Below are positions 2,904-21,146 of a DNA stretch of 64,000 bases, in pieces. Every line of letters starts with the position of its first letter. Within the stretch, counting starts at the first letter, position 1. A program made the translations under genes and the position numbers. This DNA comes from Chromatiales bacterium. Its GTDB lineage: Bacteria > Pseudomonadota > Gammaproteobacteria > SpSt-1174. Location: the NCBI GenBank assembly GCA_014762505.1, contig JABURS010000035.1:62001-126000 (forward strand), given 5' to 3'. A model generated the notes under the pieces. That model was not told where the DNA came from. It searched no databases and saw nothing but the letters and a program-made list of their open reading frames with translations.

Positions 2904-4190
2904 TTGGATCAAATCCCTCTAGGCTTCCTGTTCGGCGGACTCTTCGTCCTGTTCCTGATGTCGGGATTCTTCTCGGGTTCGGAGACGGCATTGATGTCGC
3001 TGAACCGCTATCGCCTGCGGCACCTAGCCGACCAGGGCCATCCGGGCGCGATACGCGCCCAGCGCCTGCTGAATCAGCCCGACCGGCTGATCGGCCTGAT
3101 CCTGCTGGGCAACAACCTCGTCAACATCCTCATCACCCAGCTGGCCACCTTCATCGGGCTGCGCCTCTATGGCGATGCCGGCATCGCCATTGCCACCGGC
3201 GTACTGACGCTCGCCCTGCTGATCTTCGCCGAAGTGGCACCCAAGACGGTCGGCGCCCTGCACTCGGAAAAGATCGCCTTCCCGGCCGCCTTCGTCTACG
3301 TGCCCCTGCTGGTAGTCGCCTACCCCCTGGTGTGGCTGGTGAACCTGTTCGCCAACTCCATCCTGCGCCTGCTCGGCCTGCACGACGCGGGCGCCGGCGG
3401 ACAGGCACTGAGTCGTGAAGAACTCCGCACCGTGGTCGCCGAGGCCGGCAGCCTGATCCCGCGACGACATCGCAAGATGCTGCTCGGTATCCTCGATCTG
3501 GAAAAGATCACGGTCGAGGACATCATGATCCCGCGCAAGGACATCGTCGGCCTGGATCTGGACGAGGACTGGGACAAGGTGGTGGACCAGATCCAGCAGA
3601 GCAACTACACGCGTCTGCCGGTATACCGCGGCAGCATCGATCACGTGCTGGGCTTTCTGCACCTGCGCAAGGTGATGGATCTGATCCTCAACGACGAACT
3701 CACCCGCGAGCATCTCGAGGCCAACCTGCGCGAACCCTACTTCATTCCCGAGAGCACCCCGCTCAACCAGCAGCTGCTGAACTTCCAGAAAAAGCGCCGC
3801 CGCATCGGCCTGGTGGTCGACGAATACGGCGACATCCAGGGCCTGGTGACGCTCGAGGACCTGCTGGAGGAGATCGTCGGCGAATTCACCACCACGCCCG
3901 GCGACTACGGCAAGGACGTACACGAGCAGGAAGACGGCAGCTATCTGGCCGACGGTGGCACGCACATCCGCGCCATCAACCGGGCCCTGGGCTGGGAACT
4001 GCCGACCGACGGCCCCCGCACCCTCAACGGCCTGGTGCTGGAGCACATGGAGTCCATACCCGAGCCCGGCACCTCCTTCCTCATCGCGGGCTATCCCATC
4101 GAGGTCGTGCAGGTGAAGAACAACGCCATCAAGACACTACGCCTGCGTAACCGCCTGCCGCAGCACCGTGCCGACAAGGATGACGACTGA
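2904..4190 (+). CDS. HlyC/CorC (CNNM) family transporter, YfjD-like
   Basis: This 428-residue membrane protein of the CNNM/CorC group is implicated in Mg2+/Co2+ homeostasis. The order is a DUF21/CNNM membrane domain (about 5-180, with FSGSETALMSLNRYRLRHLA typical of the family), two CBS domains (about 205-325, IMIPRKDI and VVDEYGDIQGLVTLEDLLEEIVGEF) and a C-terminal CorC_HlyC domain (about 340-420). The reading frame opens with a TTG at 2904 (MDQIPLGFLFGG). This start keeps the first transmembrane helix, whereas the first ATG, about 20 residues in, would cut it. It ends 2 bp before radA, so the two are probably co-transcribed. Confidence 0.9.
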   Translation: MDQIPLGFLFGGLFVLFLMSGFFSGSETALMSLNRYRLRHLADQGHPGAIRAQRLLNQPDRLIGLILLGNNLVNILITQLATFIGLRLYGDAGIAIATGVLTLALLIFAEVAPKTVGALHSEKIAFPAAFVYVPLLVVAYPLVWLVNLFANSILRLLGLHDAGAGGQALSREELRTVVAEAGSLIPRRHRKMLLGILDLEKITVEDIMIPRKDIVGLDLDEDWDKVVDQIQQSNYTRLPVYRGSIDHVLGFLHLRKVMDLILNDELTREHLEANLREPYFIPESTPLNQQLLNFQKKRRRIGLVVDEYGDIQGLVTLEDLLEEIVGEFTTTPGDYGKDVHEQEDGSYLADGGTHIRAINRALGWELPTDGPRTLNGLVLEHMESIPEPGTSFLIAGYPIEVVQVKNNAIKTLRLRNRLPQHRADKDDD

Positions 4191-20960: not shown

Positions 20961-21000
20961 CAGAAGGCGTGTAGTGCAAAACGGCACTACACGCCTTCTG
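20961..21000. terminator. perfect 17-bp hairpin between phoH and the sNOR-like operon
   Basis: CAGAAGGCGTGTAGTGC is followed by loop AAAACG and then its exact reverse complement ending at 21000. The stem is unusually long and perfect, and no T tract follows it. Probably the phoH transcript end; a protein-binding inverted repeat is the alternative. Confidence 0.6.
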
Positions 21001-21080
21001 CCCCGCCCTCTGCCTGCCGGGCTGCCGCCGCGGGACAATGGCACCGCGACCCATTTGACATTCCCCTACTCGCCCCGCGC

Positions 21081-21127
21081 TTGACATTTGTTCGCGCGGC
21101 CATAAAGATGCGCAACACATACATGTT
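21081..21127 (+). promoter_or_regulatory. norS promoter with NsrR-like operator
   Basis: TTGACA (21081-21086) is followed after 16 bp by a weak -10, TAAAGA (21103-21108). Overlapping the -10 is AAGATGC, nine bases, then ACATGTT (21105-21127). This has the 7-9-7 geometry of the NsrR operator (AAGATGC-N9-GCATCTT), with the left half exact and the right half differing at two positions. NsrR is the nitric-oxide-sensing repressor, which suits the gene it precedes. Computational match only, done by eye. Confidence 0.6.
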
Positions 21128-21146
21128 ATGGCGAAGGAGCTGATTC

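Follow-up and report, generated by a model that had tools for sequence, protein, structure and literature searches.

A 23-bp palindrome upstream of the norS-like gene in the analysed window (the whole 64-kb stretch of Chromatiales DNA) is, judged by its sequence, very probably an NsrR operator lying on the -10/start region of the norSY-senC-orf1 operon, through which NsrR would repress the operon until NO relieves that repression. In the mechanism that we propose, a dimer of NsrR, whose gene lies at another place in the genome, would bind the 11-1-11 palindrome while its Fe-S cluster is intact and block RNA polymerase at the norS promoter; NO would then attack the cluster, NsrR would leave the DNA, and the NorSY made after its release would reduce NO to N2O. 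Binding, repression, relief by NO and NorSY activity are all steps that we infer. The preliminary description had already suggested an NO-sensing repressor on an NO reductase operon, and this picture gains support from the site itself, the presence of an nsrR gene, the recurrence of the site in relatives and further sites at NO-type genes of the same genome.

Table 1. Features of the norS upstream region and the operon, in window coordinates.
Feature	Position	Strand	Basis
TTGACA, candidate -35	21081..21086	+	Direct read; spacing kept in relatives
AAAGAT, weak candidate -10 (3/6), under the left half of the operator	21104..21109	+	17 nt past TTGACA; conserved spacing only
Putative NsrR-type operator, AAGATGCGCAACACATACATGTT	21105..21127	+	Direct read, consensus and matrix scans, recurrence in relatives
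AGGAG, likely norS ribosome-binding site	21135..21139	+	Direct read, 7 nt ahead of ATG
norS-like, CuA-type COX2 subunit, 175 aa	21147..21674	+	Pfam COX2, E 6.9e-6; CLEYCGMAH CuA motif
norY-like, haem-copper subunit I, 478 aa	21706..23142	+	Pfam COX1, E 1.3e-49
senC/SCO1-like, 199 aa	23142..23741	+	Pfam SCO1-SenC, E 1.7e-16
orf1, hydrophobic, 210 aa	23738..24370	+	Position as orf1 of norSY-senC-orf1

The palindrome, AAGATGCgcaacacatACATGTT at 21105-21127, ends about 19-20 nt ahead of the norS ATG and belongs to a class (23 bp, 11-1-11) close to the NsrR consensus gATGyAT-N5-ATrCATc (PMC1274295), from whose extended form it departs by three mismatches. The AAGATGC-N9-ACATGTT geometry described earlier was recovered by direct reading, the left half being exact and the right half departing from GCATCTT in two letters (in one if R is permitted). 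For the scans, AA/TT ends were added to the published consensus to give AAGATGYATN5ATRCATCTT, with at most three mismatches; these ends are in line with the E. coli sites given in PMC5320621. The resulting literature pattern gave a single match in the window (shuffle mean 0.03) and two places in the 2.77-Mb genome, namely the norS site and a site on contig C43, both adjoining NO-type genes, with none for the reversed control, which bears out the view that the site is more than chance. A matrix built from the 26 distinct published NsrR sites of E. coli (PMC5320621, Table 4) gave the norS site the top score of the window (13.9, with 6.4 for the runner-up), within the span of those E. coli sites (12.0-31.3), and at lenient thresholds (4 and 6) the same matrix yielded no gain over a mirrored control. 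With a second matrix, made from the norS sites of 20 relatives with the window sequence left out, the site scored 22.8 bits (next in window, 13.2), compared with leave-one-out scores of 18.5-36.6 bits for the relatives' own sites. A looser pattern fitted to the site itself was circular as a uniqueness test and did not discriminate: it matched the window 31 times with up to three mismatches allowed, and the genome 55 times forward and 47 times in reverse with up to two. It was replaced by the literature consensus.

The operator had further been placed on the -10 behind a consensus TTGACA, and the spacing supports this: TTGACA is present at a distance that relatives keep, while the -10 hexamer is weak (3/6) and no sigma-70-like site was called at norS by a consensus promoter scan. 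The operator begins 18 nt past TTGACA in the window, and a TTGAC whose hexamer ends 17-20 nt ahead of the operator occurs at 12 of 21 distinct promoter-near norS sites (hexamer ends counted from 15 to 21 nt ahead; background, 1.3% of positions). It is because of this conserved spacing, and despite the poor hexamer, that the operator is placed on the candidate -10. Two other repeats were noted upstream of norS: a perfect 17-bp inverted repeat at 20961-21000 (CAGAAGGCGTGTAGTGC - AAAACG - GCACTACACGCCTTCTG), which lies between the phoH-like gene and norS and resembles a terminator stem but has no T run, and the word TTGACATT, which occurs twice (21055-21062 and 21081-21088, 26 bp apart).

The presence of an nsrR gene in the genome was borne out by a protein encoded at L003:1459-1893 on the reverse strand, whose best NCBIfam equivalog is NsrR. 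It reaches 161.3 bits to that model (RirA, 104; IscR, 50), which puts it 57 bits ahead of the next equivalog and below the curated NF008240 cut-off of 182 bits, a value reached by none of the 92 searched genomes and by one of 14 control genomes. The protein is thus called NsrR-like on its predicted cluster ligands and its context, and not as a member of the NCBIfam equivalog. Its closest PDB match is Streptomyces NsrR (E 2.8e-21); the cluster cysteines C92, C97 and C103 are invariant in 24 aligned proteins, two of which are IscR, and Asp8 and Arg12 (MQLTRYTDYSLR) are missing from those two IscR. All five residues correspond to residues of S. coelicolor NsrR, in which the Asp8/Arg12 pair ligates and couples the cluster (PMC5411485). 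Four Rrf2 proteins of the genome lie above the Pfam cut-off (two IscR, the NsrR-like protein and one other, of the L004 type), and nsrR is the last gene of a globin - ferredoxin-reductase - nsrR operon.

Examination of other NO-type genes in the genome returned comparable sites. Two lie upstream of the globin-reductase-nsrR operon (15.3 and 14.9 by the E. coli matrix), and both are kept, with changed letters, in the same-genus genome G001, where the relatives' matrix gives them 21.8 and 20.4 bits. Another NsrR-like site, TATATGTAAATGTTATATATGTT at L143:3818-3840 (G000:C19), stands 118 bp ahead of norC (at 3958) in a norCB pair whose NorB matches 4xyd (E 6.5e-180), and it scores 25.4 bits with the relatives' matrix and 11.6 with that from E. 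coli. The second consensus place, C43:158678-158700 (L023:8679-8701), has genes for short COX1-like and thioredoxin/NnrS-like proteins on one flank and a divergent DUF2249-hemerythrin gene on the other; the short COX1-like protein, at 132 aa, is odd. Putative operators of one motif are in this way common to four NO-type loci of the genome.

The order of the genes in the window (CuA subunit, haem-copper subunit I, SCO, orf1) is that of the sNOR-type norSY-senC-orf1 cluster, and orf1 has no Pfam or NCBIfam match. The Tyr of the oxidase motif GHPEVY is required for O2 reduction, and sNORs are marked by the lack of a cross-linkable Tyr after the CuB His. NorY of the window reads GHVFIN against GHPEVY, with Asn at the position of the cross-linked Tyr, as in 90 of 91 NorY loci (the remaining one is unreadable). 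Part of the sNOR-class features used here come second-hand via PMC11388526, and the cluster name follows PMC4940428. The label of NO reductase operon in the preliminary description is likely right, with the qualification that the role of sNOR is debated between NO reductase and high-affinity terminal oxidase, the latter having been proposed for N. europaea from induction at low oxygen (PMC6967387). NirS was not found in the genome, and the sole match to the NirK model proved to be a copper-resistance multicopper oxidase. The search thus turned up no nitrite reductase that would form NO, a result that suits defence better than denitrification.

The distribution of the site was investigated across relatives carrying norSY. 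Searches recovered NorY from 3 of 94 relatives and from 13 of 369 class genomes (own genome included in both), and a named-genome set contributed 80 stretches kept of 416 confirmed. Altogether 91 norSY loci and 90 norS upstreams were examined, L089 being dropped from upstream counts as it has no norS. Each upstream was searched up to 330 bp from the norS start and given its highest agreement with the 22 informative positions of the consensus. This best score reached a shuffle p of 0.05 or lower for 30 upstreams out of 90 (reversed motif, 8 of 90). A site of at least 15/22 stood ahead of norS in 28 of 66 NsrR-bearing and in 0 of 24 NsrR-less norSY genomes (Fisher 2.5e-5, a test that treats rows as independent although tree neighbours are kin, at a threshold chosen after the scores were seen), and the control motif gave 2 of 66 and 2 of 24. 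At 14/22 the counts were 34/66 and 6/24 (p 0.03), at 16/22 they were 24/66 and 0/24, and at 17/22 they were 17/66 and 0/24. Two row pairs carry the same sequence (L035/L075 and L039/L120). The position of the site is also confined, 23 of the 28 falling between -95 and -20 of norS; the far matches (L109 and L112 at about -125, L040 at -139, L046 at -216 and L053 at -173) are kept in the 28/66 but do not enter the spacing test or the relatives' matrix.

Close relatives and gene neighbourhoods add to this distribution. Ordered by NorY identity, the site is present in L031 (75%), L052 (69%) and L033 (68%), and not in L034 (64%); L031, the nearest with a readable upstream, has AAGATGCATCCGCTATACATCTT at -44 and an nsrR adjoining divergently. 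The expected recurrence upstream of norS is thereby seen in some of the close relatives, with the same-genus genome G001 unreadable at this point: its contig breaks inside norY and the norS upstream is missing. In a check of 13 G genomes for NsrR, each of the 12 that carry norSY has one above 117 bits, and the same-family G002 has no NorY match and a best NsrR match of 43 bits. An nsrR gene adjoins norSY in 22 of the 91 loci (11 divergent upstream, 10 downstream and G173 by coordinates), and 19 of these 22 have the site. Where nsrR is divergent, the site might act on nsrR; autoregulation fails to explain the sites of 13 loci because these have no upstream nsrR in reach (the window, L033, L039, L052, L054, L074, L076, L080, L093, L098, L099, L105 and L118). 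Taxa with the site include Thiohalomonas, Thiohalobacter, Thioalkalivibrio, Thiohalophilus, Mariprofundus, a Nitrospinaceae bin and alphaproteobacterial bins. Seven Aromatoleum loci (L044, L045, L047, L048, L051, L073 and L096) have a one-mismatch FNR/Dnr-like box, ATGATN4ATCAA, at -100 to -102 of norS, and the NsrR site is missing there though NsrR is present.

These results bear on three other explanations. NsrR might bind the palindrome and have little effect on norS, the site being decayed or weak and the operon driven mainly by other means. We regard this as quite unlikely: the right half is off consensus, the -10 is poor, the E. coli matrix scores the site below the C43 and globin-operon sites of the same genome, and 38 of the 66 NsrR-bearing norSY genomes have no site of at least 15/22 (L034 and two Nitrosomonas, L101 and L119, among them), yet the score falls inside the ranges of both the listed E. 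coli sites and the relatives, and the spacing from -35 to operator is conserved. That the palindrome is a chance AT-rich match in a short intergenic stretch, read by no regulator, appears extremely unlikely in view of the genome consensus scan, the counts in relatives, the E. coli matrix rank and the window shuffle, even with no second instance readable in the genus.

Control by a different protein, either another Rrf2 regulator (IscR or the L004 type) or an activator of the Dnr/FNR or NorR type, is highly unlikely. The two IscR and one other Rrf2 protein encoded in the genome speak for it, as does the FNR/Dnr-like box ahead of norS in the seven Aromatoleum loci. At the norS of the window, however, the best FNR/Dnr box has four mismatches and a search for a sigma-54 element gave nothing; comparable sites are missing around the IscR and L004 genes (L027-L029), and across norSY genomes the site tracks the presence of NsrR. 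Repression of norSY by the NsrR-like protein is the reading that we retain.

On a broader scale, we lean slightly towards norSY-senC-orf1 together with NsrR being a widespread NO-defence module, in which Aromatoleum-type betaproteobacteria would have swapped the operator for an FNR/Dnr-like box. In this reading nsrR accompanies sNOR in a Nitrospinaceae bin and in members of the Gamma-, Alpha- and Zetaproteobacteria, nearly always with an operator close to the norS promoter. If true, sNOR would serve chiefly to detoxify NO by reducing it, rather than as a high-affinity oxidase, and the NsrR regulon would gain a copper-containing NO reductase. That a dedicated NO sensor would control sNOR in many lineages speaks for NO being its substrate; likewise, NsrR control favours NO as the substrate of NorSY, short of proof. 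Under such control, NO and not low oxygen would be expected to induce sNOR.

No NsrR operator at norS was found in the open-access literature, including the available portions of PMC4940428, PMC3764937 and PMC6967387. An arrangement close to ours is that of Nitrosococcus oceani Noc2967-2971, where the locus tag of NsrR (Noc2967) neighbours those of SenC, NorY and NorS (Noc2969-2971), and for which the available portion of PMC3772326 gives expression ratios and states neither an operator nor NsrR regulation of norS. The sNOR of ammonia oxidisers (PMC4940428, PMC6967387) has the same gene order, CuA subunit and B-type haem-copper subunit as the operon described here; the present host is not known to be a nitrifier, and the Nitrosospira and Nitrosomonas loci in our set are without the site, many of their genomes being without nsrR. 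Compared with the gamma- and betaproteobacterial NsrR regulon (Rodionov et al. 2005, PMC1274295; PMC5320621), the norS site has the same palindrome, half-site letters and promoter overlap, and the targets there are likewise for NO detoxification. In the available part of Rodionov et al. 2005 (PMC1274295), norSY-senC-orf1 was not found among the targets, whereas norB is under NsrR in Neisseria and others, and the Legionella glbN-lpg2536 pair is a globin-reductase operon under NsrR, like the globin-reductase operon of this genome.
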